A stretch of 64,000 bases of DNA from a virus, in the IMG/VR virus record IMGVR_UViG_3300017963_000016, positions 29,472-93,471 of that record. One strand, 5' to 3'. The position numbers and the translations under genes were made by a program. The notes below the pieces were generated by a model. The model did not search any database. It was not told where the DNA came from and saw nothing but the letters and a program-made list of their open reading frames with translations. Below, piece after piece: positions 11,285 to 64,000 of the stretch (positions are counted from its first letter, which is position 1; each line of letters begins with the position of its first letter).

Positions 11285-11562
11285 TGAATCTCATCTCCAA
11301 TAATTTTTAGATAATTATAATAATATGGGTCTAGAACCTGAAATTTTGGATAATATATACCATTATAAAATTTATAAAATTTAGGATTAAGTTCTATTCG
11401 GTTATTTTCAATTCCCGGATTATTCCAGATTGATAAAATAAAAACCCTGTAAAAAACTCTAAGAGATAATTTAGCTTTTCTTTTAGTTTGAGTTTTTATG
11501 ATTGTATAAATTAACTTAAATGATAATTTGAATGATCTATTAATAAATTGTATTCTATTCAT
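11272..11562 (-). CDS. Hypothetical basic protein
   Basis: This 96-residue, Lys/Arg- and Tyr-rich protein has a middle phrase NPGIENNRIELNPKFYKFY that resembles NPELFY phrases in the genes at 5717 and 6983. The ATG at 11562 is chosen because AGGAGG lies 7 bases upstream. Family unknown. Confidence 0.65.
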   Translation of the reverse strand: MNRIQFINRSFKLSFKLIYTIIKTQTKRKAKLSLRVFYRVFILSIWNNPGIENNRIELNPKFYKFYNGIYYPKFQVLDPYYYNYLKIIGDEIQLQG

Positions 11563-34195: not shown

Positions 34196-34441
34196 CTATT
34201 CCTCATCAGAGATAAGTATTAATTTTTTTAAATCTAATTCCAGGTATTCTTTTTTAGTAATTTTTTTTACTGAATATTCTATTCCTGGACCATAATTTTT
34301 TTTTAGATATTCTTCAAATTTTCTAAGTTGTTTTTCTGAATAAAAAATAAAACCCTCTACCTCTCTATCTGAGTATTTCAATATAGGGATTGAGAGAGCT
34401 TGGCATTCATTAGGTTTTAATAGATATATTTGTATACTCAT
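34196..34441 (-). CDS. Small hypothetical protein
   Basis: This 81-residue alpha/beta protein has the order strand, strand, helix (SEKQLRKFEEYLKKNYG), strand. The one-base overlap with the gene upstream and GAGGATT support the start. Not recognised. Confidence 0.62.
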   Translation of the reverse strand: MSIQIYLLKPNECQALSIPILKYSDREVEGFIFYSEKQLRKFEEYLKKNYGPGIEYSVKKITKKEYLELDLKKLILISDEE

Positions 34442-35046
34442 TAATCCTCATCTTCCTCATCAGTTGTAATTCTAGGAGCAAATATAAAGTTATATTTATC
34501 ATTCAGAATAATTAAGGGAGCCTTAGGAGAAAAGAAAATATTATGAGGAGCTTTTATCAATTCAAATGATTTATCTATAATAGCTTTTTTATATTGTTGT
34601 TCATTTGAATCCGAAATTCCATAAAGAACAGCCTCATTAACTCCTTTTTTCTTTTTTGTTATTTTATTATCTATCAATTGATCATTTACAGGAATTGATT
34701 TCAAATCTTCTTTCTTTATTTCTTGAAAATTTCTTTTCCAGAGTTTTTCTAAGTCTTTAATGTTAACTATCTCAGTTGTTATTCCAAGAAGTCTCCTAGA
34801 GTCAATTGCCCATGTATATCCATAAACTTCCTGAATATGAAAATCCTCCAATACTAATTTATAATATTCTTTCTTTGCCTCCTCAAGCTTTTCACAATCA
34901 GATTGAGAATTACCACAATCAATATAATTACCACAACAATCACATTTAGTTTTTGAACAGATATTATTACAGTAATTATCCTCTCCAAAAGCCTCATCTC
35001 TGTAATAAGCAAAATGATTGTTTAACATTTCTAAGTCTATATCCAT
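34441..35046 (-). CDS. Tandem Cys-knuckle family C, copy 3
   Basis: In this 201-residue protein, residues 1-20 (MDIDLEMLNNHFAYYRDEAF) are almost the same as in the next gene upstream, followed by a seven-Cys cluster (YC, C, CDCCG, C, C) and a C-terminal FSPKAPLIILNDKYNF. This is one of three adjacent paralogues. The Cys pattern suggests two metals. The ATG at 35046 is preferred by similarity; its ribosome site is weak. Confidence 0.8.
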   Translation of the reverse strand: MDIDLEMLNNHFAYYRDEAFGEDNYCNNICSKTKCDCCGNYIDCGNSQSDCEKLEEAKKEYYKLVLEDFHIQEVYGYTWAIDSRRLLGITTEIVNIKDLEKLWKRNFQEIKKEDLKSIPVNDQLIDNKITKKKKGVNEAVLYGISDSNEQQYKKAIIDKSFELIKAPHNIFFSPKAPLIILNDKYNFIFAPRITTDEEDED

Positions 35047-35054
35047 TTTAATTC

Positions 35055-35603
35055 TCAACCCTCTGTCTCATGGCTTATTCTATAAGCAATGAGTATTGTA
35101 TAATGTTTATCTTTGATTATTAAAGGAGTCTCAGGAGAAAAATAAATTTTGTAAGGAGCATTAATTAATTTTAAACAAGAATCAATCAGTCTTTTTTTGT
35201 ATTGAGTTTTTGAATCTGGAATTTCATAAAGCTCAGGAATTATTTTAGGTATTAGCTTTAGATCAGATTTCTTTATTTCCTGAAATACTTTATTCCATAA
35301 TACTTTATAATGTTGTATATCAATAATCTTATCTGTAATAGCAACAATCCTCTCAGAATTAGTAGCCATATCAAACCCATGTATTTTCTTAACTATGAAA
35401 TTCTCAGTAATTAATTTCTCATATTTTTTCTTAGCCTCTTGTAGTATCCCGCATGTTCTAGGATCATTTTCGCAATCTATTCTTGATCCACAACAATCAC
35501 AAACACATTCATTGCAATTGTAATCACAATAATATTCAGCAGAAAAACTTTCCTCCCTATAATAAGCAAAATGATTGTTTAATATTTCTAAGTCTATATC
35601 CAT
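35055..35603 (-). CDS. Tandem Cys-knuckle family C, copy 2
   Basis: This 182-residue protein shares with copy 3 the opening DIDLEILNNHFAYYREE, the Cys cluster with CDCCG, the central VFQEIKKSDLK and the closing FSPETPLIIKDKHY. GGAGGAGG precedes the ATG. The conservation of both ends suggests a common fold with an N-terminal metal site and C-terminal beta unit. No family is recognised. Confidence 0.8.
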   Translation of the reverse strand: MDIDLEILNNHFAYYREESFSAEYYCDYNCNECVCDCCGSRIDCENDPRTCGILQEAKKKYEKLITENFIVKKIHGFDMATNSERIVAITDKIIDIQHYKVLWNKVFQEIKKSDLKLIPKIIPELYEIPDSKTQYKKRLIDSCLKLINAPYKIYFSPETPLIIKDKHYTILIAYRISHETEG

Positions 35604-35604
35604 A

Positions 35605-36180
35605 TTAACTTTCAGCCTCCTCCTTATCAGGATATTTAGGAGATATTATAATGCTATATTTTTTATCTTGAATAATCATGGGTCTTTCAGGAGCAAAAAG
35701 AATTTTGGGATTTTTAATTAAGTTAAAAGAAGAATCTATTACTCTTTTAAGAAAGGAGTGTTTATTTTCTGGGATTTCATATTCTTTAGGTATTACTCCC
35801 TCTTTCTCAATGAATACAGATTTATTAATCTCTAAGTATTGAGTTTTAAATCTTTTATTAAGGTATTCTGTATTAATCTCCTCTGAGCTTTCCCATATAC
35901 CAAAATAATGAGAGATGTTGATAGCCATATCAAAACCATAGATATTTTCGATATTAAATACTTCTATTACTTTCTTCTCATATTTCTTCTTATATTGCTC
36001 CTCAGCCTCTTTAAGTTCAGAGCAATCAGATTGGGTAATCTCACATCCAGAATAATTACCACAACATTCACATTCATGATAACGATCTCCACATTCATTA
36101 TCACAATACTCCTCCTTATCAAATTCCTCCTCTTTGAAATAAGAAAAGGCTTGGCCTAACATTTTTAAATCTAATGGCAT
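35605..36180 (-). CDS. Tandem Cys-knuckle family C, copy 1
   Basis: This 191-residue protein is the most diverged of the three copies: LDLKMLGQAFSYFKEEEF, a Cys cluster with CECCG, and FAPERPMIIQDKKYSI at the end. The last phrase recurs as ERPMIIQDNKY in the right-arm gene at 49499. AAGGAGG precedes the ATG. Confidence 0.8.
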   Translation of the reverse strand: MPLDLKMLGQAFSYFKEEEFDKEEYCDNECGDRYHECECCGNYSGCEITQSDCSELKEAEEQYKKKYEKKVIEVFNIENIYGFDMAINISHYFGIWESSEEINTEYLNKRFKTQYLEINKSVFIEKEGVIPKEYEIPENKHSFLKRVIDSSFNLIKNPKILFAPERPMIIQDKKYSIIISPKYPDKEEAES

Positions 36181-42362: not shown

Positions 42363-43211
42363 TTATTTATAATTGTTGAATATAAAATTATCTAATGGGA
42401 GAGGCTTTTTAATTCTTAATCTCATATTTGAAATTAATAACTCTTTTACCAATTGATGTTTAGAATTAATTTGATGTTTAGTTAAATTCTCATAAACATA
42501 GCAAAAAGAGAATCTTTCTTTTATAGCTTCAGAATAATTTATTGTCATAATCCATTTTGCTCTTTTAAGTTGCTCTACTAAATAGAAAAATTTTTTATGA
42601 TCAAAATTTCTATGTAAGCCTCCATTTTTCCCATAGAGATTTGATAATTTATTATTAGTATAAGGAGGATCGAAATAATAGAAAATTCCAAGATGATCTT
42701 CTAATAATTCACTATAATCTTGATTAAATAATTGGGTATTAATAAAGGGAGATTTATATTCCCTTATTTTCAGAATAGATTTAATAGTAAAATGATCTTT
42801 AAATGATTTTTCAGAATATCCACTATTTAAAGCAATTCCATTAAAACCAATTCTGCTGAGGATAAAATATCTTGAGGCCTTTATTAATGAATTAGAATCA
42901 GGATTGAAAAGCTCTTTTTTACATTTCAAAAAAAGTTCCTTTCCAGATTTATATTTCTCTTTTAGCCTTAAAATCTCCTTAATTAAATCTTCATTGGAAT
43001 TAATTAGAGTATACCAAAAACAATAGAGATTTGTATTAATATCATTCAAGATTGAGGGAATTTTATTATGCTTCCTTAATTGGAAAAAAACAGAGCCTCC
43101 TCCCAAAAATAGTTCCCTATATTCTTTCATATCTTTTGGAAAGTGATTTACTAGACTTTTAGCCATGAGGCTTTTGCCTCCAGGATACCTTAATACTGAT
43201 TTAGATTTCAT
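42363..43211 (-). CDS. D12-class N6-adenine DNA methyltransferase (Dam-like)
   Basis: This is a standard D12 enzyme of 282 residues: LRYPGGKSLM (motif X, 7-16), ELFLGGGSVFFQL (motif I, 33-45), RIGFNG (region of residue 120) and FDPPYTNN (motif IV, near 180). It closely follows Dam/DpnM layout, unlike the longer left-arm enzyme, so the two probably have different targets; GATC is a guess. It has its own promoter region, which holds the GAATGACTAACT motif. Confidence 0.93.
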   Translation of the reverse strand: MKSKSVLRYPGGKSLMAKSLVNHFPKDMKEYRELFLGGGSVFFQLRKHNKIPSILNDINTNLYCFWYTLINSNEDLIKEILRLKEKYKSGKELFLKCKKELFNPDSNSLIKASRYFILSRIGFNGIALNSGYSEKSFKDHFTIKSILKIREYKSPFINTQLFNQDYSELLEDHLGIFYYFDPPYTNNKLSNLYGKNGGLHRNFDHKKFFYLVEQLKRAKWIMTINYSEAIKERFSFCYVYENLTKHQINSKHQLVKELLISNMRLRIKKPLPLDNFIFNNYK

Positions 43212-43239: not shown

Positions 43240-43650
43240 TCAAATCCTGAATCCTCCTCCTCTTCTTTTTAATGCTTTCTGAAATTCCTCTTCATTAAAA
43301 ACATCATTTCTAAAACTGATATTATCAGCTCTCTCAAATACTCCAGGTATTTTTTTTCTAGCTTTAAGAACTTTAAATCTTACGGGCCTGGATTTCTCCA
43401 CTTCTATATATCCTAAATCTCTTAGATTTCTGATATATTTATTTATATTAGTTTTATTAACTCCTGTAGTATCAGCAATATCTTGATAAGTAAACCAGGT
43501 TTCTTTAGGAAATCTATTAATTATAAAATAAGCTAAATTAGTTTTATAAGGATTTCCCATTTTATTGCTAGAAAGTCTTTTAAATAATTCTTCAGCAGAA
43601 TTAAAGTTATTTTTCTCTAATTCACTCATTTTTATCTTTATAACAGTCAA
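43240..43650 (-). CDS. Winged-helix regulator
   Basis: In this 136-residue protein WFTYQDIADTTGVNKTNINKYIRNLRDLGYIEV is a textbook winged helix; the last 40 residues are a charged tail. TTG at 43650 is preferred because GGAGAG lies nine bases upstream and the codon forms a TTGA overlap with the zinc protein. It lies directly upstream of the Dam gene, a sensible position for its regulator. Confidence 0.75.
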   Translation of the reverse strand: MTVIKIKMSELEKNNFNSAEELFKRLSSNKMGNPYKTNLAYFIINRFPKETWFTYQDIADTTGVNKTNINKYIRNLRDLGYIEVEKSRPVRFKVLKARKKIPGVFERADNISFRNDVFNEEEFQKALKRRGGGFRI

Positions 43651-43997
43651 TGATATTTTCTCTCTCCATATTCTAATTCTTTTTTATCCATTTGGATTTT
43701 ATTTAAATCTTTATAATAATAACCAACTCCTTTCCATGTATATTTATCCTTAACATAGAGCCTGGTTTTATTTCTATAGATTTCCTTTAGAATAGTTAAA
43801 TCCTTATCTATAATTGTAGAATAACATTTCTTACAATAATAACCAACAGCTTTCCAGGAGCCTTTAAATTTTATATATAATCTGTTCATTGAATAAGCAT
43901 TATATCTAGCCTGAAGGCCTGAGCCTGAAGTATACAAATAATAACATTTTTCACATTTTCTGGATTGCTTTTTGCCTGTTGCTATTTTCTTTGCCAT
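43647..43997 (-). CDS. Zinc-finger protein with repeated aromatic unit
   Basis: This 116-residue protein has CEKC near residue 15 and CKKC near 56. The phrase KGSWKAVGYYCKK recurs as KYTWKGVGYYYKD 35 residues later, so the protein holds an internal repeat in which the second copy has lost the Cys. A TATA box lies 29 bases upstream, so it is probably leaderless. It heads a three-gene unit with the regulator and Dam. Confidence 0.75.
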   Translation of the reverse strand: MAKKIATGKKQSRKCEKCYYLYTSGSGLQARYNAYSMNRLYIKFKGSWKAVGYYCKKCYSTIIDKDLTILKEIYRNKTRLYVKDKYTWKGVGYYYKDLNKIQMDKKELEYGERKYH

Positions 43998-44121: not shown

Positions 44122-44145
44122 TATAGTTTTCTCAGGTTTGGAAAA

Positions 44146-44230
44146 ATCGATCACTAGTCGTAAAATTTTTAGAGGAGAAAATATTTTAAATGAATCCTAT
44201 AATGTTTTGGAGGCTCCATGTATTCAAAAT
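44146..44230. repeat. 85-base intergenic repeat R1, copy 1
   Basis: It matches 54470-54554 without gaps at 79 of 85 positions. The most constant parts are ATCGATCACTAGTCG at one end and TTTTGGAGGCTCCA near the other. Both copies lie in long gene-free stretches and hold no convincing frame. Confidence 0.85.
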
Positions 44231-44272
44231 GCTAAGTTAGTCATTCAATATATTTTTTAATTTCGGTCCAGG

Positions 44273-44286
44273 AAAAAAATAAAAAA
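44273..44286 (-). terminator. T-rich tract after the 44292 gene
   Basis: Coding strand T6-A-T7 starts a few bases past the stop. Confidence 0.5.
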
Positions 44287-44291
44287 TTTTT

Positions 44292-45020
44292 TTAAATGGC
44301 TCCAGGATATGCTGTTTGTCTTTTTTTTCTTCTAGTTCTAATAATAAGAAATCCAATTAAAACACTCATAATTGAAAAGACAAATATAGATATGAGAATA
44401 AAAAGAAGATCACTCTCTGCAATTGAAAAGTCTCCAAAAGTTATTAACTCCTCTTCTATTATGGTTATTCCTGAAGTAAAATCTACTCCAATTTTTTGAG
44501 GAGCTAATTCTTTTAATTCTTTCCTATAAGATATTATTTCAAAATTATTAATATTAAATGGTATTCCAATTGAGATTAATAAATTTCCCTCATGTAATGA
44601 TACATACGATTGTTTTGATATAATAAAGAAAGGCTCTGAACTCCCATTTGATTGTATTTTCAAATCATATCCCTCTATTTTACTGAAATCTGTAAAATCT
44701 TTAAACTCTAATTTATCAGGGTCAAAAAAGATATAGAAAATAAATAGATATTTGTCAAAATCTTCTTTTTTTAAATCATATTTGAAATCAATATGGAGAT
44801 TATAAGCCATAGTTGAGTAGTGTCTAATAATATCAATATTCTCATAGCCAATTTGAACATTCTCAGTTTTGAGATTTCCAAAATATTCGATTACATCATT
44901 CTGAGTATCAGTTCTTATATCTACAATTGGAGGAGGAGGCATTTCAGCTTTAGAAATTCCAACAAATATATTAAGAGTTATAAGAATTAGAAGAGTAAGA
45001 AATATTTTATTAGTTTTCAT
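44292..45020 (-). CDS. Secreted single-pass membrane protein, Asgard-like surface type
   Basis: This 242-residue protein has a signal peptide at 1-25 (IFLTLLILITLNIFVGISKA), an extracellular beta-rich domain, and a C-terminal membrane helix at about 207-228 followed by RTRRKKR. The pattern D-T-QNDV-EYFG-NVQIGYENIDI near residues 36-65 resembles domains common in Asgard surface proteins (a 'GDV ... DI' beta unit). It may be exposed on the host cell or virion surface. It has its own promoter and terminator. Confidence 0.8.
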   Translation of the reverse strand: MKTNKIFLTLLILITLNIFVGISKAEMPPPPIVDIRTDTQNDVIEYFGNLKTENVQIGYENIDIIRHYSTMAYNLHIDFKYDLKKEDFDKYLFIFYIFFDPDKLEFKDFTDFSKIEGYDLKIQSNGSSEPFFIISKQSYVSLHEGNLLISIGIPFNINNFEIISYRKELKELAPQKIGVDFTSGITIIEEELITFGDFSIAESDLLFILISIFVFSIMSVLIGFLIIRTRRKKRQTAYPGAI

Positions 45021-45102
45021 AATATAAAATTAGGCTTAGTTTAATTTAAGTTATAAGTAAAAAAAAAGAAATTAATGAGAGAGTTTTATTTCAATTTTTA
45101 AT

Positions 45103-45117
45103 AAAAAAGGAAAAAAA
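45103..45117 (-). terminator. T-rich tract after the 45118 gene
   Basis: Coding strand T7-CC-T6 touches the stop codon. Confidence 0.5.
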
Positions 45118-45600
45118 TTATTTTAATACATAAACTTGAACTCTATTTTTTCCAAAAGACTTAGAGGCCATTACTTTAAGTTTAGATAACGGTATATTAT
45201 TTTCTTTTGAATATTCTTTTACAAATCTCTCAGCCTCTCCTTTAGCCTGTAATCCAGGAGAGCTATATGATTTCAAGAGGCTTTTGATCTTTCTTCCCTT
45301 TAAATTAATATACATATCCTCCCAAATCTTACCTGCGATAATCCCATCATTATATAGAGTATAACATTGGAGTTTTGTATTTTTACAGCCAATATACTCA
45401 ACTAGACCTCTATTGTTCAATCCTTTCAAGATATTATACAGGGATTTTCTTTCCTTACTCACATCTAATTTATTTACTTTTGATAATATTTGTTTATGAG
45501 TTAAGGGTTTTTCAGCCTTATATAAAACTCTTAATACTAGGGCCTCCACACTTCCTATTGAAAAGGAGCCTGGATACTTATACCATAGAATCTTATACAT
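45118..45600 (-). CDS. Winged-helix regulator
   Basis: In this 160-residue protein residues 15-85 (GSVEALVLRVLYKAEKPLTH ... ILKGLNNRGLVEYI) form a winged helix. The C-terminal 60 residues are basic and include a LSKLKVMASKSFGKNRVQVYVLK end. No ribosome site is seen. Confidence 0.74.
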   Translation of the reverse strand: MYKILWYKYPGSFSIGSVEALVLRVLYKAEKPLTHKQILSKVNKLDVSKERKSLYNILKGLNNRGLVEYIGCKNTKLQCYTLYNDGIIAGKIWEDMYINLKGRKIKSLLKSYSSPGLQAKGEAERFVKEYSKENNIPLSKLKVMASKSFGKNRVQVYVLK

Positions 45601-45665
45601 TTTTTATAAACCAATTTAATTTAATTGATTAATATATTATTTATTAAATTAATAAATTTCATGCT

Positions 45666-45681
45666 AAAAAAAGAAAAAAAA
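45666..45681 (-). terminator. T-rich tract after the 45690 gene
   Basis: Coding strand reads T8-C-T7, nine bases past the stop. Confidence 0.5.
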
Positions 45682-45689
45682 GAAAGGAT

Positions 45690-45929
45690 TTATTTTAAAG
45701 CTCTTACTTTATTGAGAAATTCATTATGAGGAATCCTTTTTTTCTTATCAGGGTCGATTTCGTTTAAATGTCTCCCTGTTGTATTTCCCCATTGGTTTTC
45801 AGAGATAAGTAATTTATTCCCTTTTTTAACAGCAACTAAAGTCTTATAGCTAAAAAAGAATCTAAATCCATTTATCCTCACTTCATTAAAATTTGGTTTA
45901 ATAGGATTAATCTCAGGTATACCTACCAT
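45690..45929 (-). CDS. Small conserved-looking mobile-element protein
   Basis: The 79-residue protein has FSYKTLVAVKKGNKLLISENQWGNTTGRHLN, split here as SYKTLVA, then W.NTTGRHLN, a signature I associate with small phage proteins of the DUF8033 type. The ATG at 45929 fits a TATA-like TTTAATTAAA about 26 bases upstream. Role unknown. Confidence 0.7.
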   Translation of the reverse strand: MVGIPEINPIKPNFNEVRINGFRFFFSYKTLVAVKKGNKLLISENQWGNTTGRHLNEIDPDKKKRIPHNEFLNKVRALK

Positions 45930-46019
45930 TATTTTCACTAATAATTTTTTTAATTAAAGTATTATTTTAGTTTTATTTTAATATTTAGATAAATAAAAAG
46001 AAAATTAAAGATTGAGTAT

Positions 46020-46361
46020 TTATTGAATATTGTATTTTCTCATGTTTTTCTCAACAAAATATCCCATACTAGCTATCATAGGCATTTTAGTAATAGTATT
46101 GAATATTATAGTTGTATCATAAGTATCTCCTTTATTTATATATAGAGCAACTATATCTCCATAATAACCTCTTCTAAATGATGAGCCTCTAATAGCCTCC
46201 ACTCCATAGCCTCCAATTAACTTGTTTATTCTTTTAAGCATAACTTCAGCTTTAGCTCCTGATACTTTTCTGATTTTGGATAACAATAAATCTATCTCTT
46301 TAGCCTCTTCTTTTGAAATACTGAATACTTGTAATAATCTTTTTTGCCTTTCATATCCCAT
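46020..46361 (-). CDS. Small conserved-looking mobile-element protein
   Basis: This 113-residue protein has the phrases GGYGVEAIRG, YYGDIVALYINKGDTYDTTIIF and MGYFVE, which resemble a short phage and plasmid protein with a GVEAI ... LYVNxGDTYxxT pattern. No activity is known for that group. The N-terminal 50 residues are helical. Confidence 0.72.
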   Translation of the reverse strand: MGYERQKRLLQVFSISKEEAKEIDLLLSKIRKVSGAKAEVMLKRINKLIGGYGVEAIRGSSFRRGYYGDIVALYINKGDTYDTTIIFNTITKMPMIASMGYFVEKNMRKYNIQ

Positions 46362-46435
46362 AAAGTTCACTTAATTTTGTTTTAATTAATAATGAGATTA
46401 AGTTCTATTTTAGTTTTAAGATCAATTGATTAATT

Positions 46436-46461
46436 AGTATACTAAATAAAAGTTATACCAG
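46436..46461. repeat. R2 repeat, copy 1 (AGTATAC motif)
   Basis: These 26 bases match 54672-54697 at 24 positions. This copy is centred in a 12-base palindrome, TTAGTATACTAA. Confidence 0.6.
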
Positions 46462-46492
46462 GAAATGATCAATTTGTTTTGGATTGAGGAGA

Positions 46493-46711
46493 TTATATTG
46501 GTTTAATCTTTATTCTTTTACTCAATTCCTTAGCAATTTTCTGAGATTTTAATAATGATTGAATCATAATCCTGGCCTGTTTTTTATCTTTCTCAAACCT
46601 AAATGAATATTCATTCGGCAATAATCCAAAAATATTATCTACTTTTTTAACAAAATCATCTAGGAATTTCTTAGTATATACAGGAGATTTAGTATCAACA
46701 ACAATATTCAT
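46493..46711 (-). CDS. Small basic protein
   Basis: This 72-residue protein has a strand (NIVVDTKSPVY) then helices with basic residues (EKDKKQARIMIQSLLKSQK). Single gene, no ribosome site. Not recognised. Confidence 0.66.
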   Translation of the reverse strand: MNIVVDTKSPVYTKKFLDDFVKKVDNIFGLLPNEYSFRFEKDKKQARIMIQSLLKSQKIAKELSKRIKIKPI

Positions 46712-46751
46712 AATAATATTATATCAATCTTAGATTAAAGTTTTTTTATTT

Positions 46752-46771
46752 AAAAAAAAAAGAAAAAAAAA
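46752..46771 (-). terminator. T-rich tract at the end of the 52000-46776 cluster
   Basis: Coding strand T9-C-T10 follows directly after the last gene of the cluster. It is the strongest T-tract in the window. Confidence 0.6.
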
Positions 46772-46775
46772 TTAA

Positions 46776-46991
46776 TTAGTGATTATATCTCTTATCTTCT
46801 AAAATCTCATCAATTTGTTTAATTAATGGCTCCCTGATTTTAGGAGAGGCTTGTTTAATTAAACCTCTCCTATAAACTTTAAGCATTTCAAGAAAAACCT
46901 TATCAGTTATTTTATCATAGGTTAATCCATGCTGTTTAATAAGAGCTATACTTATCTCTATATGAGATATTTTCAAACTATATACTACCAT
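46776..46991 (-). CDS. Small helical protein
   Basis: This 71-residue, all-helical and basic protein is the last gene of the SD-led cluster that begins at 52000. It overlaps the winged-helix gene by seven bases. Not recognised. Confidence 0.66.
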   Translation of the reverse strand: MVVYSLKISHIEISIALIKQHGLTYDKITDKVFLEMLKVYRRGLIKQASPKIREPLIKQIDEILEDKRYNH

Positions 46992-47338
46992 TCTTTAAAT
47001 CCCTCTAGATTGTTTTTAAATACTCTTCTTTTCAAATATACCAAAACCTGATATAATTCTACTCCTTTTGGAGTAAGCTGAATCTGTTTTTCATGATCAT
47101 TCAGTTTAAAGATTCTGATTAGTTGCTCTTGGAGGAGAATATCTTTATTTCTAATAAACATATTCTTATTTCCGATATTATCTAATCTTGTATAGAATGA
47201 AGAGTAAGGCAAACAATTAACCCATTCCTGAGGAGGCCTTTCCTCAGGATTATTATTACTCTCATCTATCCAATCTTTAAGAATATCTAATATTTTCCAA
47301 AAGCCTATTTTTTTGAAGAGCTGATGTAATTTTTTCAT
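46985..47338 (-). CDS. Winged-helix-like protein
   Basis: This 117-residue protein ends KQIQLTPKGVELYQVLVYLKRR, the wing and final helix of a winged helix. The N-terminus (KKIGFWKILDILKDWI) is similar to KIGFGGYYDFLECLK in the gene at 20766. GGAGG precedes the ATG. Confidence 0.7.
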   Translation of the reverse strand: MKKLHQLFKKIGFWKILDILKDWIDESNNNPEERPPQEWVNCLPYSSFYTRLDNIGNKNMFIRNKDILLQEQLIRIFKLNDHEKQIQLTPKGVELYQVLVYLKRRVFKNNLEGFKEW

Positions 47339-47361
47339 AATTTTTCCTCCATTTCTATTTA

Positions 47362-48114
47362 TTATAAGGTATTATTTCTTATTATATTATCTGAAATAAT
47401 CTTTAAGTTCTTTTTTGTTAAAATATACTCCTTAGGGTTTAGACCTGAATTTTCATAATCCTGTTTAAATTTTTTTATTTTATCTTGATAAGTATGAAAT
47501 ATCTTAGGCTCCTCATATCTTAATTTATTATCGAATACTTTTTCTAATCCCTTTTGAGTTATACTATAATAATATTCTGATAACTCAAAGTTAGTCTTAA
47601 AAGCTAAGCCATTACTTATTAAATCCTCTAGGATACCTCTTATTTTATTATAAGGGATTATAATATCATGGCATTGGAATAAATAGCTTTTAATTCTAGA
47701 GATAGTTATCTCATCACTATCATAACTTAGGCCATAGTTTTCTGTAAATGGGAATTTTCTGAAAAATCTTATCTTAATCCAGGTTTTATGTAATTTCCTC
47801 TTCTTATAATTAAACCAAACAAAATATAATTGTTTTAAAATAATTTCATGTAAATCCTGGTTTAATCTATTAATAAACTTAAACTCTCTCTGAGCTTTTA
47901 ATAATGAGCTTAATTTCTGAAAGTTAAAACATTTTTCCTTGAAATAGGTTTTTATCTCATTAATACTCTTAGTATGAAATCTAATATCAAAATTATAAGT
48001 CTTTTTATCTTTAAAATCCTGGAATTTAATTTCTATTAAATAATAATCTTTAGCTTTTCTAATATTAAAAAAATGAATATTATTAAAAAAAAAGTTAGTT
48101 TTTAATTCTTTCAT
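47362..48114 (-). CDS. Hypothetical protein with winged-helix-like domain
   Basis: In this 250-residue protein residues 145-200 (IPYNKIRGILEDLISNGLAF ... YYSITQKGLEKVF) look like a winged helix. The N-terminal 100 residues are beta then helix and basic. AAGGAGG precedes the ATG. Confidence 0.7.
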   Translation of the reverse strand: MKELKTNFFFNNIHFFNIRKAKDYYLIEIKFQDFKDKKTYNFDIRFHTKSINEIKTYFKEKCFNFQKLSSLLKAQREFKFINRLNQDLHEIILKQLYFVWFNYKKRKLHKTWIKIRFFRKFPFTENYGLSYDSDEITISRIKSYLFQCHDIIIPYNKIRGILEDLISNGLAFKTNFELSEYYYSITQKGLEKVFDNKLRYEEPKIFHTYQDKIKKFKQDYENSGLNPKEYILTKKNLKIISDNIIRNNTL

Positions 48115-48131
48115 ATAATATAAGCCTCCTT

Positions 48132-48359
48132 TTAATTGCTCCTTTCATACCAATAATTTTCTATTAATTCAAATAGGTTTTTAGCAACTAATTCACGATC
48201 ATCTTGGTTTAGCTCATCTAATAGGCCTAAGTCCTCTATAAAATCAGTAATTCCATCAAAAAAATAGACTAATAGATCAGGTTTATCAGATAGATCAATA
48301 TTGTATACATCTTTAATCTCTCTTTTAATGCTTTCAATATCCTTATCCAAATTTTTCAT
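48132..48359 (-). CDS. Small acidic helical protein
   Basis: This 75-residue, very acidic protein (LGLLDELNQDDRELVAKNLFELIENY) could be a DNA mimic or adaptor, but no family is known. GGAG lies 12 bases before the ATG. Confidence 0.66.
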   Translation of the reverse strand: MKNLDKDIESIKREIKDVYNIDLSDKPDLLVYFFDGITDFIEDLGLLDELNQDDRELVAKNLFELIENYWYERSN

Positions 48360-48367
48360 TTAATTTC

Positions 48368-48649
48368 TCAGCTCCAAAAATCCATATTGTAATTTTTGAT
48401 AAATTCGGCAACTATAAATCTTAGCTTATTCTCATCATTAATTAATTCTGAAATCCAGGAATGAAGAGTTTTAGTAAAAGCATTATTTTTATTAGATTCT
48501 AAAGTCTCTTTAAATTTTTTCTGTAAATCAGGCTCTAAAGAAAAGTGAAATCCTGCTATGGTATCTATGAATCCTCCAATTTTAATTAAGCAATCTCTAA
48601 AACCATGTAAATAACCTTTTTTAAACCATTTTTCAGTTGTTTTTGCCAT
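48368..48649 (-). CDS. Helical hypothetical protein
   Basis: This 93-residue protein has mixed charge and is likely a helical bundle (FRDCLIKIGGFIDTIAGFHF). TGAGG precedes the ATG. Not recognised. Confidence 0.66.
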   Translation of the reverse strand: MAKTTEKWFKKGYLHGFRDCLIKIGGFIDTIAGFHFSLEPDLQKKFKETLESNKNNAFTKTLHSWISELINDENKLRFIVAEFIKNYNMDFWS

Positions 48650-48650
48650 T

Positions 48651-49502
48651 TTATTTTACCTCAAAGTTTATTATATATTTTTGATATTTTTCCATAAATT
48701 CTTTCGGCTTAGACTCATTTTCTAAGCATTCCTCAGGAAGTAATGATTTTATAATTATTAAGGCTTTTTTAGATATTTGTGTTAAACACTTTTCGCAAAT
48801 AAAGAAAATCTCTTTAATTTTAAAGTAATCCTTATCAGAGCAAATATCCTCTGTTTTATAGTATCTTAGTAAATGGCTCTCACATAGCTTTTGGTTTTTT
48901 AATTGCTCTTCTTTATCCTCCAGGCTAAATCCTAATGTAGATTTAAATCTTTTCATAAGTCTCTCATAATAATCAGCATAGCATGGATAGGCTTTATTTG
49001 GATATTCATGTTGGCATTTGAATAATCTACTAGGCTTTTCTGATGAGAAATCCTTATTGCTAATCTCCTCATCTTCCTCAGGAGATACAAAAGAATCATA
49101 AGCCTCTCCTAAAAAATCTTTATAGAAATCTGATTGTTTTACTGAAGTATGTAAATCAAAATACATTTGATTAGCCATTTTAATAATTTTATCTAGGCTC
49201 CCTTTCTCAACTACTATACTCTCTCCATAATGAACATTTTTTTTAAATAAGTTAAATTCCTGCTGTTGAGTATGTTTATTGAAATATGTAAAAGAGGAAA
49301 TCCTATTCTCCATTATATCCATGACTAATTCAAATTCATTAGTTATAAAGTTCCTCCAGATTTTTAGCCTATGGTTTGGTAATCCATGCTTTTCTTGGCT
49401 TACTTTTGGAATCCAGGCATAAAGATCATATTCTAACATGCTATAACCAGGATGATCTAAATCCTCTGAAAAAAATTCATGTTCACATATATAAGACTTC
49501 AT
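48651..49502 (-). CDS. Hypothetical protein with Cys/His sites
   Basis: This 283-residue protein has scattered pairs (CEHEFF, CQHEY, CESH, CEKC) that could bind zinc. The centre is acidic (SPEEDEEISNKDFSSEK). GGAGG precedes the ATG. Not recognised. Confidence 0.7.
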   Translation of the reverse strand: MKSYICEHEFFSEDLDHPGYSMLEYDLYAWIPKVSQEKHGLPNHRLKIWRNFITNEFELVMDIMENRISSFTYFNKHTQQQEFNLFKKNVHYGESIVVEKGSLDKIIKMANQMYFDLHTSVKQSDFYKDFLGEAYDSFVSPEEDEEISNKDFSSEKPSRLFKCQHEYPNKAYPCYADYYERLMKRFKSTLGFSLEDKEEQLKNQKLCESHLLRYYKTEDICSDKDYFKIKEIFFICEKCLTQISKKALIIIKSLLPEECLENESKPKEFMEKYQKYIINFEVK

Positions 49503-49822
49503 GTGTGAGCCTCCATTTCATCTATTATATCGAAGATTTTGGATAATAAATCTTTATTTGGTTGTTTATATTTATTATCTTGGATAATCATTGGTCTTTC
49601 TTTTGCCTTTATGATTCTTACTAAATGCTTATCAAATTGCTTGGTAAAAGGTATCATTTTACTCATTTGCTTCTCAGATAATAGTAGAAATCCCTTAGTA
49701 ATTCCTTTTTTGATTAATTCTATGGATAATCTTTCCTTATTTATTTTTTCCATGATAAACTTAGTTTGAATGTTGATTTCTAACTCTATTTTTTCTATTA
49801 CTTTTGTTTGATTATTTTCCAT
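49499..49822 (-). CDS. Hypothetical protein sharing the ERPMIIQD motif
   Basis: This 107-residue helical protein contains ERPMIIQDNKY, nearly identical to the end of the left-arm family C copy 1 (ERPMIIQDKKY). This may be a small shared element or a remnant. It has its own promoter with paired AATCATTTCGATT boxes, then GGGAGG before the ATG. Confidence 0.7.
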   Translation of the reverse strand: MENNQTKVIEKIELEINIQTKFIMEKINKERLSIELIKKGITKGFLLLSEKQMSKMIPFTKQFDKHLVRIIKAKERPMIIQDNKYKQPNKDLLSKIFDIIDEMEAHT

Positions 49823-49857
49823 AATTTTTTCCTCCCTGTTTGATTATTTTGTTTATT

Positions 49858-49912
49858 CAAATTTTTATTTAGAATCGAAATGATTTTTCTTTTCAGGCTA
49901 ATCGAATTGGTT
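49858..49912 (-). promoter_or_regulatory. Paired AATCATTTCGATT boxes and TATA, upstream of 49822
   Basis: One box (49873-49885) touches the TATA-like CTAAATAAAAATTTG; a variant box (49900-49912) lies 27 bases further upstream. The same layout recurs at 50467-50520. Confidence 0.65.
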
Positions 49913-49927
49913 AAGCCTATAGAAAAG

Positions 49928-49936
49928 AAAAAAAAA
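49928..49936 (-). terminator. T9 tract after the 49955 gene
   Basis: Nine T on the coding strand, 19 bases past the stop, followed by C and four more T. Confidence 0.45.
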
Positions 49937-49954
49937 GTCATTGATATTTCCTCC

Positions 49955-50434
49955 TTAGATGTGGTTATCCTCAAAATTAGGGCAATCGAAAAGAGGATGA
50001 GGCTCTACATGAAAATATTTATCATAATCTTGCTTTTCTGATTTATATTTATTATAAATCATTTTCCATTCTGAAATCTGATTCATTATTATATCAATCT
50101 CATCAGTTAATTCTTCCTGAGTTGGCTCCTTAACTTCAATTAATACCTTCTCTTCAGGATGTTGCTTATAATATTCCTCTAGCTCTTTAAACTCATCCTC
50201 ATCAATATCAAATTCCACATGGCCATTGACAAAATCTATTAGTTCCTGTTCAGATTTTTGCTCCTCTTCTTTTACCAACTCTGGATTGAATAGTTTTTCT
50301 AACTCATAGGCTAATATACTTAGTTGCTCCTCAAAATTCCCTATAGTCATTTCAATACATCCCTGTAAACTATTGAAATAAATATCGTGCCGATCAAATG
50401 CCTTTCCTAATACTTCTAAAACTTCCTTATCCAT
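49955..50434 (-). CDS. Very acidic hypothetical protein
   Basis: This 159-residue protein is strongly acidic over its central 100 residues (FDIDEDEFKELEEYYKQHPE). Charge alone suggests a DNA-mimic or chaperone-like role, but there is no family match. AGGAGG precedes the ATG, and the promoter holds two perfect AATCATTTCGATT boxes. Confidence 0.7.
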   Translation of the reverse strand: MDKEVLEVLGKAFDRHDIYFNSLQGCIEMTIGNFEEQLSILAYELEKLFNPELVKEEEQKSEQELIDFVNGHVEFDIDEDEFKELEEYYKQHPEEKVLIEVKEPTQEELTDEIDIIMNQISEWKMIYNKYKSEKQDYDKYFHVEPHPLFDCPNFEDNHI

Positions 50435-50466
50435 GATAATATTCCTCCTTATTTTTTGATTTATTC

Positions 50467-50520
50467 TTTTTTTATATTCAAATCGAAATGATTTTCCCTT
50501 TCAGAGCAATCGAAATGATT
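50467..50520 (-). promoter_or_regulatory. Paired AATCATTTCGATT boxes and TATA, upstream of 50434
   Basis: Identical 13-base boxes at 50481-50493 and 50508-50520, 27 bases apart, precede AATATAAAAAAAG. Each box is an imperfect inverted repeat (AATC ... GATT). Confidence 0.7.
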
Positions 50521-50562
50521 AATCTCTTTAGAAATAGGAAAAAAACAATTTTATTCATTTTA

Positions 50563-51231
50563 TTAGCCTCCATTTGCTATTTGAACTATTCTTTTAACAT
50601 CCTTTATATATGTGAGCTGAGCCTTAGTAAGATTGCCATTTCTCTTAATCCATTCAGTAAATACTCTAAAGATTTTATTTCTCTCTGATAATGTAAAAAG
50701 TTCAATAGATATTTCATGTTTGGAGAGAAATTCAGCAAGATTACCAATAAAAATAATACTCCCTGCTGATAATTCTGTGAATTTTATAATATTTCTAAAA
50801 TATTCTATTCTTTCGTTTTTATGATTTAAATCAGCTCTTAACTCAGATATTTCTTTTCTTAATCTTTCGATCTCTTTATTTTGAGTATGTTGATCTATTA
50901 TTGTATTTTCTTTATACAATTTTTCTTTCTCAAAAATCTCACGATCAATCAAATTTACTATTTTCTCAAGATCATCAAAAAAGCTAAGCTCATTATCTTC
51001 TACTTTAGATTTTATTGAATCTATTTTCTCTTTTCTTGTCTTTCCAACAAATATCATATCATTCTTGATTATTCTGAGAGTTTTTTTATCAGATTGGGAA
51101 ATTCCTCTCATTTTAATCATATAATTGACAATTTGTTTTAATAATAAATCTGATCGGTTATAAAAAGGATTCTCAAAAATATAATCTCCCTTTCTTTTCA
51201 AGAAATCAACGATCTTATTTACAATTCCCAT
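50563..51231 (-). CDS. Coiled-coil hypothetical protein
   Basis: The ATG at 51231 has AGGAGG nine bases upstream; the longer frame is ignored. In 222 residues a coiled coil spans about 115-150 (KEIERLRKEISELRADLNHK) and the rest is helical and basic. Not recognised. Confidence 0.7.
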   Translation of the reverse strand: MGIVNKIVDFLKRKGDYIFENPFYNRSDLLLKQIVNYMIKMRGISQSDKKTLRIIKNDMIFVGKTRKEKIDSIKSKVEDNELSFFDDLEKIVNLIDREIFEKEKLYKENTIIDQHTQNKEIERLRKEISELRADLNHKNERIEYFRNIIKFTELSAGSIIFIGNLAEFLSKHEISIELFTLSERNKIFRVFTEWIKRNGNLTKAQLTYIKDVKRIVQIANGG

Positions 51232-51232
51232 T

Positions 51233-51418
51233 TTATAAGTCCTCCTGATTTTTTTCAATATAGAACATAAAGAAGTCAATTTCATTAAGCCATATTCCTT
51301 TAATATGCTTTTCGGCATAAGGCCTGGTATATCCAAAATTCTTTACAAAACTCTTGATTGCTCTCTCTTTTAGTTCTATATAAATATGCTCTGGAATTAA
51401 ACCATTTATTTCATTCAT
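51233..51418 (-). CDS. Small helical protein
   Basis: This 61-residue protein has aromatic, charged helices (RPYAEKHIKGIWLNEIDFF). AGGAGG lies 11 bases before the ATG. It is coupled to the next gene with one base between. Confidence 0.65.
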   Translation of the reverse strand: MNEINGLIPEHIYIELKERAIKSFVKNFGYTRPYAEKHIKGIWLNEIDFFMFYIEKNQEDL

Positions 51419-51439
51419 TTTATATCATTCCTCCTTAAA

Positions 51440-52000
51440 TTAAAAAAAAGATGTAATTAATTTGTTTATTTGTTTAGTTTTTTGCTCTTTGGTATCCTCT
51501 TGATTTAAGTGTTTATAACATAATGGGCATAAGCATATTTGAGAGTTGCCTGGAAAGTTTTTCTTATCAAGAATGTGAAATGTATTTCCTGGAGCCATAA
51601 CAATATTACAGGTTAAACATCTCACTACTTTATTTGTTCTAATTTTCCAGAAAGCATAATCAATTTCACATTTAGGACAATGAGCAAAAATCCATTGTCT
51701 TTCTTTAAAGCCTTTAATAAACATGCCTCCCTCATGTTTGAAATGTTCTAAAGGGTCTAGGAGGCTTTTACAACTAGGACAATTCCTTTTAGAGTTTTTT
51801 TGATAAAAAGATAAGGGAGGATATTCATTTACCTCTCTTATTCCCTTATCTAATATCATATCAATAAGCTCTTGATAAGGATTTGCTAGCTTTTTCCAAC
51901 ATATCGGGCCTAGTCCTCTAGATATTGATTTAGGGTCGGATAAGGGTTTACCACAACATCGGCAAAAACAAGAGACTACCGTATTATTCATATTTTCCAT
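51440..52000 (-). CDS. DUF6011-like multi-zinc protein
   Basis: The N-terminus has the DUF6011 signature, CRCCGKPLSDPKSISRGLGPICW (given here as its key parts: CxCCGxPL, S, RGLGPxC), usual in phage proteins of unknown role. Three more zinc pairs follow: CPSCKS with CPKC, and CLTC with CPLC. At 186 residues it is larger than the bare domain. It heads the 52000-46776 cluster and sits behind three operator-like palindromes, so it may regulate itself. Confidence 0.78.
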   Translation of the reverse strand: MENMNNTVVSCFCRCCGKPLSDPKSISRGLGPICWKKLANPYQELIDMILDKGIREVNEYPPLSFYQKNSKRNCPSCKSLLDPLEHFKHEGGMFIKGFKERQWIFAHCPKCEIDYAFWKIRTNKVVRCLTCNIVMAPGNTFHILDKKNFPGNSQICLCPLCYKHLNQEDTKEQKTKQINKLITSFF

Positions 52001-52014
52001 AATGATCATTTTAT

Positions 52015-52061
52015 ATTATTTCTAATAATATTATTTCCAATAATATATTATTTCCAATAAT
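52015..52061 (-). promoter_or_regulatory. Three tandem ATTATTnGAAATAAT palindromes
   Basis: Three 15-base units, two of them ATTATTGGAAATAAT and one with a single change, lie one after another between the TATA box and the start codon. Each is an inverted repeat with a three-base centre. The place suggests repressor binding over the transcript start. Confidence 0.65.
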
Positions 52062-52076
52062 ATATAAATATATCTC
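52062..52076 (-). promoter_or_regulatory. TATA box of the 52000 cluster
   Basis: A run of ATATTTATATAT on the minus strand directly precedes the palindromes, placing the transcript start inside them. Confidence 0.5.
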
Positions 52077-52127
52077 TCCTCTAAAAAAGGCTGTAGTATT
52101 AAAATAACTTTAAAATTACTAAGTATT

Positions 52128-52148
52128 AGTTAGTCATTCAATTCCAGG
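52128..52148 (-). repeat. Dispersed CCTGGA-TTGAATGACTAACT motif, copy 3
   Basis: The minus strand reads CCTGGAATTGAATGACTAAC, close to the copies at 43214 and 44233. Here it lies past the end of the 52196 gene, after its T-rich tract. Confidence 0.5.
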
Positions 52149-52195
52149 AAAAAAAGAAAAAATTGGTAGAATAATTAAAAAAGAAAAGAAAAAAA
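52149..52195 (-). terminator. Double T-rich tract after the 52196 gene
   Basis: The coding strand has two T-rich runs with single C interruptions, the first touching the stop. Confidence 0.5.
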
Positions 52196-52498
52196 TTATC
52201 TAATTAATAAGCCATCCTCTATATTTTGCCAAACCAGGTATCTTTTTCTTAATTTTTCTCCTTTTGGAGATTCAGAAATTCTCTCCATTGTTAATTTATT
52301 TACATTGTTTAAGGTTTGATAAAAGCTTTTTTTAATAGCTACTACTTTTCCGTTTAGTTTATAGCCTTTCTTTAGAGGCCTCCATAATGTTCCTAATTTA
52401 GTATTGATAGTATAATGATCATCCTGGATTAAAATATCTCCAATTTCTAGCAGAGGCTTTTTTTGTCTATTATATCCTGAGATTGTTATAGTTTTCAT
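52196..52498 (-). CDS. Small basic beta-rich protein
   Basis: This 100-residue protein's first 60 residues alternate short strands and turns (LEIGDILIQDDHYTINTKLG), then a basic helix follows. Possibly an SH3-like or OB-like small barrel. Not recognised. Confidence 0.68.
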   Translation of the reverse strand: MKTITISGYNRQKKPLLEIGDILIQDDHYTINTKLGTLWRPLKKGYKLNGKVVAIKKSFYQTLNNVNKLTMERISESPKGEKLRKRYLVWQNIEDGLLIR

Positions 52499-52506
52499 AA
52501 AGAATC

Positions 52507-52755
52507 TTATCCTTTCATTTTGTTTAAGGCTTTATTTAAAGTTTCAATACAGATATTCAGAACAGGATAACCCAATTCAGCAGGAGTGTGAACATAAGGC
52601 TCTTTTCTTGGTCTTTTAGACTTTCCTAAAAGATCATAAAGCTCCTCTAACTCTTCTTTACTGAGAGATTTTAGCTTTTTATCTACTCTTTTCAATTCAG
52701 CTAAATTAGTTTGTTTTCCTGAATACCAACATCTATATTTTACTTTTTTAGGCAT
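52507..52755 (-). CDS. Small helical protein
   Basis: This 82-residue protein has SLSKEELEELYDLLGKSKRPRKEP in the middle, helical and basic. It precedes the 52498 gene by eight bases with no ribosome site between, so the two are likely co-transcribed. Not recognised. Confidence 0.66.
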   Translation of the reverse strand: MPKKVKYRCWYSGKQTNLAELKRVDKKLKSLSKEELEELYDLLGKSKRPRKEPYVHTPAELGYPVLNICIETLNKALNKMKG

Positions 52756-52841
52756 GAATAATATTTAGATTTCAAGAATTTAAAATTTAAGTTATCAGGA
52801 TTTTAAGAAAATGTTTTGAATAGTTTGATCATTTATTTGTA

Positions 52842-53000
52842 TCACTCTCCTGCTATACAATATCCATTTTCTAGTTTCAATAATCCTTTTTTAATTAAAA
52901 TTAATGATATATCTCTGATTTCTTGCTCACTATATCTTGAAAAATATTCCTTTATTTCATAGAATTTAACTCTCTTTCTCATTTTCACAAATGTAATCAT
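52842..53000 (-). CDS. Small winged-helix-like protein
   Basis: The frame gives 52 residues from the ATG at 53000. VKFYEIKEYFSRYSEQEIRD and LKLENGYCIAGE resemble a minimal winged helix. Start uncertain (GTG at 53030 or later ATG). Confidence 0.55.
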   Translation of the reverse strand: MITFVKMRKRVKFYEIKEYFSRYSEQEIRDISLILIKKGLLKLENGYCIAGE

Positions 53001-53086
53001 ATTATTCTCAGTTAAAATAATTATTATCACATCATTTAATCTTCTATTTTAATCTTGGAATAAAAAGAATTACAGCTTTAGTTCCT

Positions 53087-53269
53087 TCATTTAGGCTCAT
53101 ATATCCATTTATCTTTACATTTCTTAATCTCTAATCCTGAGGATATAATTTTGGCTTTTTTAGAATCATTTTTGTCAATAAGAATCCTTTTTTTCCTCCC
53201 AAATTCTATTAAAGGCTCATTCTTCATTCTTATATATATTTGAACAGTTTGAGATAATTTTTCAGGCAA
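53087..53269 (-). CDS. Small basic protein
   Basis: This 60-residue, Lys-rich protein has short strands (VQIYIRMKNEPLIEFG). It begins at TTG just after the stop of the gene upstream. Not recognised. Confidence 0.58.
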   Translation of the reverse strand: MPEKLSQTVQIYIRMKNEPLIEFGRKKRILIDKNDSKKAKIISSGLEIKKCKDKWIYEPK

Positions 53270-53273
53270 TTTT

Positions 53274-53531
53274 TTACCATTTTTCTATTTTTATTATCAA
53301 ATCAATCAAATTGCTTTTTTTTAGTGTATTCAGATTTTCCTTTAGGTTTTTCTCAAAATCGGGTTTAGCTAGGAAGAAAGGAGAAAAGGATAATACTTTA
53401 GATTTGTTTTGATAAATTAGGTTTATCAATTCTTCTTTCTTGTAATTCTTATTGAGGAAGTTTTTTCTAACTTCAATATTTTTCTTTCTAGCCTCCTCAA
53501 CTATCCCTTTTTTAAATTCCGTTTTTACCAT
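53274..53531 (-). CDS. Small basic helical protein
   Basis: This 85-residue protein is very basic (FKKGIVEEARKKNIEVRKNFL) and helical. The ATG at 53531 overlaps the 3' end of the next gene upstream. Possible DNA binding by charge; no family. Confidence 0.64.
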   Translation of the reverse strand: MVKTEFKKGIVEEARKKNIEVRKNFLNKNYKKEELINLIYQNKSKVLSFSPFFLAKPDFEKNLKENLNTLKKSNLIDLIIKIEKW

Positions 53532-53541
53532 TGAATACACT

Positions 53542-53751
53542 TTATTTAGTAATTTTCTTATCTTTAAGCTCTTTTGGTAAATTAAGCCAAAAATTAGTTA
53601 TTCTACTCCTCATTTTATCTAATGCTTTCTTTATAGCATTTAGCTCTGCTTTTCTTGTTTTATTCAAAAGTTTTACAACAGGAGTTAGTTCATTATTTGC
53701 TGAATTAACTCCACTAAGAGCTTTATTTATTTGATCTGTTATATCAGGCAT
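53542..53751 (-). CDS. Small helical-hairpin protein
   Basis: This 69-residue protein has two amphipathic helices (ITDQINKALSGVNSANNEL and KAELNAIKKALDKMRSRI), like the helical-hairpin proteins at 57800-58328. It heads a three-gene unit. Confidence 0.66.
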   Translation of the reverse strand: MPDITDQINKALSGVNSANNELTPVVKLLNKTRKAELNAIKKALDKMRSRITNFWLNLPKELKDKKITK

Positions 53752-53881
53752 AATTACTCATTTAAATTATTTTAATCTAAATAATATTTTCATTAACTTT
53801 TATTTAATTCTTAGGTAATATTACGATAATATTTAGATATAGCTATTTATTCGTAAAACTGAAATTTCACGAAGATAAAAT

Positions 53882-53889
53882 AAAAAAAA
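53882..53889 (-). terminator. T8 tract after the 53898 gene
   Basis: Eight T on the coding strand, eight bases past the stop. Confidence 0.45.
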
Positions 53890-53897
53890 TAGAGAGA

Positions 53898-54320
53898 TTA
53901 TCTCTTTTCTACATAAGCATAATTATATCCTTTTAATTTAACCAATTCTACTTTCTTGAACTTATGCTTTATCTGATATAATTCTCTTCCTTTTTGCCAA
54001 TATATTTTCTCCCAAATATCCTCTTTATAGAGTTTTTTATCGGTTTTGATATATCTAAGAGCATTTTTATAACTAAAAGTATACACTTCATTACCGATTA
54101 ACCAAATTCTCTTAGGTTTTAAACCCATTCTTTTAATTTTATCTCTAGTTGTTAAGATAAAATCTAATCTCTCTGATTTTGATAAATTACTGCTTACTTT
54201 TATGCCTTTTTCACTAGCATATAATTTCAATTGTCTACTAGTTAATTTATCTAATTCTCTCTTTGTTATTTTTGGGAGAGGCATCTTCATTGTTTTACTA
54301 AAAATCTCAAAATCAGCCAT
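53898..54320 (-). CDS. SAP-like DNA-binding protein
   Basis: In this 140-residue protein residues 18-55 (ITKRELDKLTSRQLKLYASEKGIKV ...) fit a SAP/HeH helix-extended-helix unit. The rest is beta-rich and basic. With the gene at 41305 it gives two SAP-type proteins in this arm. Confidence 0.7.
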   Translation of the reverse strand: MADFEIFSKTMKMPLPKITKRELDKLTSRQLKLYASEKGIKVSSNLSKSERLDFILTTRDKIKRMGLKPKRIWLIGNEVYTFSYKNALRYIKTDKKLYKEDIWEKIYWQKGRELYQIKHKFKKVELVKLKGYNYAYVEKR

Positions 54321-54469
54321 ATTTAATAATTTGTTTTTCTTTTATAAAAATTTGATGTAATTTCTAAACTAATAACCTTTTTATCATAACAATATGAGCA
54401 TGAAAGCCTCTTACTCAAAACTATCGTTTTGGTAAAATCCCTAAGAGTAAATATATAATATTCAAATCA

Positions 54470-54554
54470 ATCGATCACTAGTCGTAAAATTTTCAGAGGA
54501 GAAAATTTTTAAAATGAATTTTATAATGTTTTGGAGGCTCCAGGTATTCAAAAT
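54470..54554. repeat. 85-base intergenic repeat R1, copy 2
   Basis: Matches 44146-44230 at 79 of 85 positions with no gap. Confidence 0.85.
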
Positions 54555-54671
54555 CAACCTTTTATCCTGGAAATCAGGATATTAAAAATGATCAAATCTG
54601 AACATAAAATTTTGTCCCGGATAAATTGAATGATCAAATATGATCATTAGTTCTAAAACCTGAGGATTTGA

Positions 54672-59473: not shown

Positions 59474-59517
59474 AATAAACTATTTTTTTTTTTAAAATTA
59501 AATAAAAATAAGATTTT

Positions 59518-59538
59518 GAAAATAAAAAGATTAGGTTT
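59518..59538 (-). promoter_or_regulatory. AACCTAAT-type promoter, copy 2
   Basis: AAACCTAATCTTTTTATTTTC lies 45 to 65 bases before the ATG at 59473. Confidence 0.6.
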
Positions 59539-59546
59539 GATTTAGA

Positions 59547-61762: not shown

Positions 61763-61804
61763 TTAAATCCCTTTAATTTTTTAATTAAATAAGTATTAGA
61801 TTCA

Positions 61805-61825
61805 GTATATAAAAAAATTAGGTTT
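61805..61825 (-). promoter_or_regulatory. AACCTAAT-type promoter, copy 4
   Basis: AAACCTAATTTTTTTATATAC lies 43 to 63 bases before the TTG at 61762. Confidence 0.6.
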
Positions 61826-61849
61826 GAGTCAATATTTCTTTTAGAATCA

Positions 61850-62149: not shown

Positions 62150-62193
62150 GTTTTATCAATAAAAAGTTTTTTTTTAAATAAAAAATAGAATAT

Positions 62194-62215
62194 GAAAATA
62201 AAAAGATTAGGTTTA
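62194..62215 (-). promoter_or_regulatory. AACCTAAT-type promoter, copy 5
   Basis: AAACCTAATCTTTTTATTTTC lies 45 to 65 bases before the ATG at 62149, and is identical in its core to copy 2. Confidence 0.6.
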
Positions 62216-62219
62216 ATTC

Positions 62220-63663: not shown

Positions 63664-64000
63664 AATGAATAAATGGATTATTTTCTTCCCATATATCTTG
63701 ATAAATAAATTCAATTAAACAATTCAGCAGATCATCTTTAAAATCTTTAAAATATGAAAGATTAAAGCAATCCCAATCCAGAAATAACTCTTTATAAGAA
63801 AAGATAATATCGGTTATCACTTTTATAATTTCAGGTAGATCATTTTTTATAGCCTCATCATATAGAATTGCTAAACTCATAGGAAAAATCTTAATTTCAT
63901 TCTCTATTTCTAAGTCTATAATTTTTATCAATATTCCTTTAAACTCTACATTCTTTAATGGTTTTCCCTTAAGCATAGTCTTAGAGAAATATTGTAAAGC
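63659..64000 (-). CDS. Hypothetical protein, N-terminus cut by window edge
   Basis: The frame is open to the right edge (ALQYFSKT before the ATG at 63976), so the true start may lie outside the window. The visible part is alpha-helical (ILYDEAIKNDLPEIIKVITDI) with two Cys. No family is recognised. Confidence 0.65.
   Translation of the reverse strand, partial: ALQYFSKTMLKGKPLKNVEFKGILIKIIDLEIENEIKIFPMSLAILYDEAIKNDLPEIIKVITDIIFSYKELFLDWDCFNLSYFKDFKDDLLNCLIEFIYQDIWEENNPFIHS

Follow-up and report, generated by a model that had tools for sequence, protein, structure and literature searches.

The genome studied here carries five copies of a non-coding DNA element, R1. R1 is tentatively read, at a little under an even chance, as a multi-copy, cis-acting control element to which a protein binds. 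This reading draws on block-wise conservation, a palindrome, helically spaced GATC pairs, and strict placement between genes. An earlier note on this DNA had offered a small RNA gene, a recombination or resolution site, a nicking site, or an origin element as possible roles. Its idea of a functional intergenic element holds, given the five copies, the patchy conservation, the strictly intergenic location, and the GATC dyad in three copies, but some of the roles it offered do not; a regulatory or operator role, which was absent from its list, is the best supported.

The window analysed is a stretch of 64,000 nucleotides, from base 29472 to base 93471 of a virus record that is 93,471 bp long. 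The first and last 123 bases of the record form a perfect direct terminal repeat (genome 1-123 and 93349-93471; window 63878-64000), and because of this identity the genome looks complete, at about 93,348 bp, and is probably circular or terminally redundant. The count of five R1 copies is therefore probably final. In our own selection of open reading frames across the whole genome, the minus strand carries about 176 of 180 genes. TATA-like boxes precede genes, and winged-helix proteins match the Sso10a, Lrs14, Sta1, and MsvR models at scores below those models' cut-offs; these archaeal signs suggest that the carrier of R1 is an archaeal-type virus or virus-like episome. Counts across the whole genome are 1 for GTAC and 16 for TGCA, where trinucleotides predict 80 and 90, a scarcity that suggests avoidance of host restriction sites; CpG is scarce as well (299). 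Other features of the window include a radical SAM protein (32913-33866) that matches PHROG 9298 strongly and is 26-40% identical to homologues in Bacteroides phages and Methanomassiliicoccales viruses, and three tandem paralogues at 34441-36180 (direct repeats D1 and D2) coding for Cys-rich proteins.

The earlier note had described two copies of R1, and this pair is confirmed as a gap-free match at 79 of 85 positions (44145-44230 and 54469-54554; 93%), far beyond chance by BLAST (E = 1.5e-32). The gene-free stretches in which it had placed them are gaps between genes of 294 and 403 bp, and few gaps in the genome are longer. It had also proposed looking for copies outside the window, and three more are found there, at genome positions 5446-5524, 21347-21425, and 27700-27787. 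Named by genome position, the copies are c5, c21, c27, c73, and c83; their features in the window are listed in the table. All five have the same orientation and all are intergenic, a confinement also seen in the repeats of halovirus HF2, and the gaps that hold them rank 2nd, 3rd, 5th, 9th, and 14th in the genome by length. A 79-bp element would fit wholly between genes at only 5.5% of genome positions, which makes the chance probability of five intergenic copies about 5e-7. The longest part of the genome without R1, 27.7-73.6 kb, is mostly densely packed with genes. The note had held that a copy inside a gene, or at the edge of a duplicated gene, would speak against the element; none of the five is so placed.

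Features of the R1 copies in the window and of the genes next to them (window positions unless marked as genome)
Feature	Position	Strand	Remarks
R1 copy c73, left half	44146..44230 (genome 73617-73701)	+	right half: none detected
c73 51-bp core	starts at CACTAGTCG, 44152	+	
c73 mostly variable 6 bp	44203-44208	+	
c73 conserved GGAGGCTCC block	after the variable 6 bp	+	
TGGAGGCTCCA near-palindrome of c73	44208..44218	.	
R1 copy c83, left half	54470..54554 (genome 83941-84025)	+	core and conserved TGGAGGCTCCA block
TGGAGGCTCCA near-palindrome of c83	54532..54542	.	
c83 right half	54555..54648	+	TCCTGGAAATCAGGA hairpin and GATC dyad around TGTCCCGGAT
TCCTG-GAAAT-CAGGA hairpin	54565..54579	.	kept in c21 and c83
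Imperfect dyad of c83	54590..54648	.	GATC in left arm, centre TGTCCCGGAT
First gene downstream of c73	43647..43997	-	116-aa Cys-rich protein
Second gene, c73 unit	43240..43650	-	winged-helix protein, TrmB/MarR-like
Third gene, c73 unit	42363..43211	-	D12-class adenine DNA methyltransferase
Gene downstream of c83	53898..54320	-	140 aa, weak N-terminal similarity to PHROG 3281 (endonuclease VII)

In the left half of R1, conservation comes in blocks. Counted from CACTAGTCG, positions 1-51 form an AT-rich core in which 46 of 51 positions are invariant among the five copies, positions 52-57 keep only 1 of 6, and the conserved TGGAGGCTCCA block at positions 58-79 keeps 18 of 22. Identical blocks are thus separated by variable stretches, as in the HF2 repeats, and such a pattern is expected of a binding site and not of uniform decay. 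The fully conserved end that the earlier note had pointed out exists, but its sequence is CACTAGTCG and not ATCGATCACTAGTCG, since two of the five copies lack ATCGAT. The TGGAGGCTCCA near-palindrome broadens to CCTGGAGGCTCCAGG in c27.

Three copies, c21, c27, and c83, extend to about 180-200 bp through a right half; c5 and c73 lack this GATC half. The likeness of c83 to c21 is 91% over 174 bp, core included, and that of its right half to c27 is weaker. A dyad centred on TGTSCCGGAT ends all three full copies, and a model of the right half matches its own reverse complement with E values of 3e-5 in c21, 0.01 in c83, and 1.5 in c27. Every dyad arm in these copies carries GATC-N6-GATC, such as TGATCAAATATGATCA in the right arm of c83, except the left arm of c83, where the second GATC has been lost and reads GAAC. 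There are five GATC pairs spaced 10 bp apart in the genome, and all five are within R1. The two pairs of a dyad are separated by 42 bp in c21 and by 53 bp in c27, and the remaining left GATC of c83 keeps the 42-bp spacing; the 11-bp difference between c21 and c27 is about one helical turn, and it is one length difference, a single event. The seven CCGG sites of the genome (21488, 27869, 40886, 51980, 60019, 68369, and 84088) are all within CCGGAT, six of them in TCCCGGAT, and three are the centres of the R1 dyads.

As a control element, R1 would be a composite protein-binding site in which an ultra-conserved, AT-rich core has a promoter-like arrangement, the TGGAGGCTCCA near-palindrome is the operator-like part, and the distal dyad of three copies has its GATC pairs facing the same side of the helix. 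By binding several of the sites, a DNA-binding protein could coordinate the adjacent minus-strand units. The binder is plausibly the virus's own winged-helix regulator, encoded just downstream of R1 copies, and the winged-helix protein of the c73 unit is a candidate for it. We infer protein binding, autoregulation, and a direction of control at R1. Only 2 of 132 proteins have winged-helix Pfam matches at E<=0.001; the two have a domain in common, and their genes are the first after c21 (genome 20785-21279) and the second after c73. In simulations, placement beside R1 by chance had a probability of 0.009-0.055, depending on the null model and the gaps sampled, so the adjacency is suggestive only; weaker winged-helix-like proteins are found elsewhere in the genome. 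The Cys-rich protein that comes first after c73 had no Pfam match, and the structures modelled from single sequences for two downstream proteins had low confidence.

For four copies, the distances to the minus-strand gene downstream are 68, 72, 155, and 156 bp, a placement that favours a control element. Copy c5 sits in a small island of plus-strand genes and is inverted relative to its neighbours, which counts against this reading. Two other upstream repeat families keep 8-25 bp from gene starts, whereas the distance varies for R1, and R1 is for this reason not an ordinary core promoter. By inspection of the plus strand, GAGAAAATATTTTAA and the conserved block that follows it after 27 nt have the look of a BRE/TATA box and a start site, but a promoter read in this way points away from most of the neighbouring genes. 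A motif model built from the virus's own upstream regions misses the R1 core, although the model is poor and its A-rich motif uninformative. As for the other two families, the AATCAAACCTAATCTTTTTATTTTC family (window 59498-59542, 61785-61829, and 62174-62218) stands 23-25 bp before three minus-strand gene starts and looks like a shared promoter element. The AATCATTTCGATT-type sites (window 49843-49936 and 50451-50544; genome 24421-24502), which are 8-22 bp before gene starts, look like an operator for another regulator.

The nearest described kind of element appears to be the intergenic repeats of halovirus HF2, which contain blocks of identical bases and have been shown to be promoters (PMC8707807). 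R1 resembles the class I/II repeats of HF2 (PMC8707807) in being multi-copy, in lying only between genes, and in alternating identical blocks with variable stretches; both come from archaeal-type viruses, and in both an AT-rich box is followed by a conserved G some 26-27 nt later. R1 differs from the HF2 repeats in its greater length (79 to about 190 bp), its GATC dyad half, and its variable distance from genes, and its better promoter-like reading is opposed to most of the genes beside it.

The GATC pairs also invite a doubtful alternative, in which R1 is a replication origin or a segregation (centromere-like) site. An initiator or partition protein would then bind several R1 copies; the DNA would unwind at the AT-rich core, and the adjoining GATC dyads would serve for assembly or for sensing methylation. 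Of all GATC clusters in the genome, the three densest are R1 regions, an excess over the genome background of the kind expected of an origin controlled by GATC sequestration. In E. coli, oriC is enriched in GATC, which SeqA reads there (PMC4285127). R1 resembles oriC in its clustered GATC beside AT-rich DNA, and the virus, like E. coli, codes for adenine methyltransferases of the Dam kind. The window holds four DNA methyltransferases (9625-10827, 11555-12265, 30418-31377, and 42363-43211), of which two are D12, one is of the Dam family, and one is a C5-cytosine enzyme. The D12 class takes in Dam/DpnM; the D12 enzyme of the c73 unit matches the DpnM and Dam structures, a match that gives no site specificity. 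Against an origin, known replication initiator families (DnaA included), ParA/ParB, and SeqA were not found by Pfam among the 132 proteins, five dispersed sites are many for an origin, and two of the copies are without the GATC half. The GC skew is monotonic and dominated by the coding strand and so gives no origin signal. A more specific proposal, and a long shot, is that a viral adenine methyltransferase, one of which is the third gene of the R1-headed c73 unit, methylates the GATC pairs, whose sites are one helical turn apart, and that a viral winged-helix protein reads their methylation state at up to three sites, thereby timing replication or transcription. If true, a methylation-sensing R1 would be a functional analogue of Dam/SeqA outside bacteria.

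It is unlikely that R1 acts as RNA, either as a small structured family or as the structured 3' trailer of upstream minus-strand transcripts. A long hairpin can form from the right half whichever strand is taken (z -1 to -3), and in all three full copies the right arm of the dyad ends 75-81 nt from the stop codon of the upstream gene, but any DNA palindrome yields the same hairpin, and c5 is located among plus-strand genes. The small RNA gene suggested by the earlier note is weakly supported at best, as there is no Rfam covariance-model match for R1, z-scores for folds of the core are near 0, the same as for shuffles, and the covariance folding that the note had recommended gives no covarying pair in the core. 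A tRNA-like site was rejected, no tRNA being found in the window. A very unlikely origin for the repeats is that they are mobile or derived from recombination, as MITE-like elements or recombination sites spread by copying. A sharp left boundary fits this, as does the 99% identity of c5 and c27 over 98 bp, which reaches outside the common core and makes one of the two a fairly recent duplicate. R1 is also short, non-coding, and dispersed, as prokaryote MITEs are, but neither terminal inverted repeats nor target duplications are apparent when boundaries and flanks are read by eye, and block-wise conservation and strict intergenic placement in one orientation argue against spread of this kind. 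With transposase, recombinase, and relaxase families all absent from the 132 scanned proteins, a partner transposase is missing, and the recombination, resolution, or nicking site suggested by the note finds no support. Hardly credible is a decayed or short protein-coding repeat: four of the five copies keep one frame (SRKILRGENILNESY..LEAPGIQN) open through the core, but an in-frame stop interrupts it in c83, three copies (c5, c21, and c83) have no start codon, and there is no match in Pfam or PDB. The variable columns fall 6/5/3 over the codon positions, and a coding repeat was rejected on this split, the stop, and the absent starts. The lack of codon bias, core folds that equal those of shuffles, and the absence of covariation make DNA the likelier functional form of the core.

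To judge from database searches, R1 appears to be a previously unmatched non-coding DNA element. It had no match by blastn in phage and plasmid records, and the patterns tried in scans of viral and prokaryote contigs gave none either. Single-protein queries of the viral and prokaryote contigs found no related viruses; the collections may lack near records, and distant relatives may be missed because such queries use arbitrary peptides.

An archaeal virus is hard to interpret when its replication or structural genes are not recognised, and a five-copy element with clear blocks shows where tests of regulation or replication in this lineage could begin. Should the GATC pairs of R1 be sensitive to methylation, they would offer an example from an archaeal virus of control timed by methylation.
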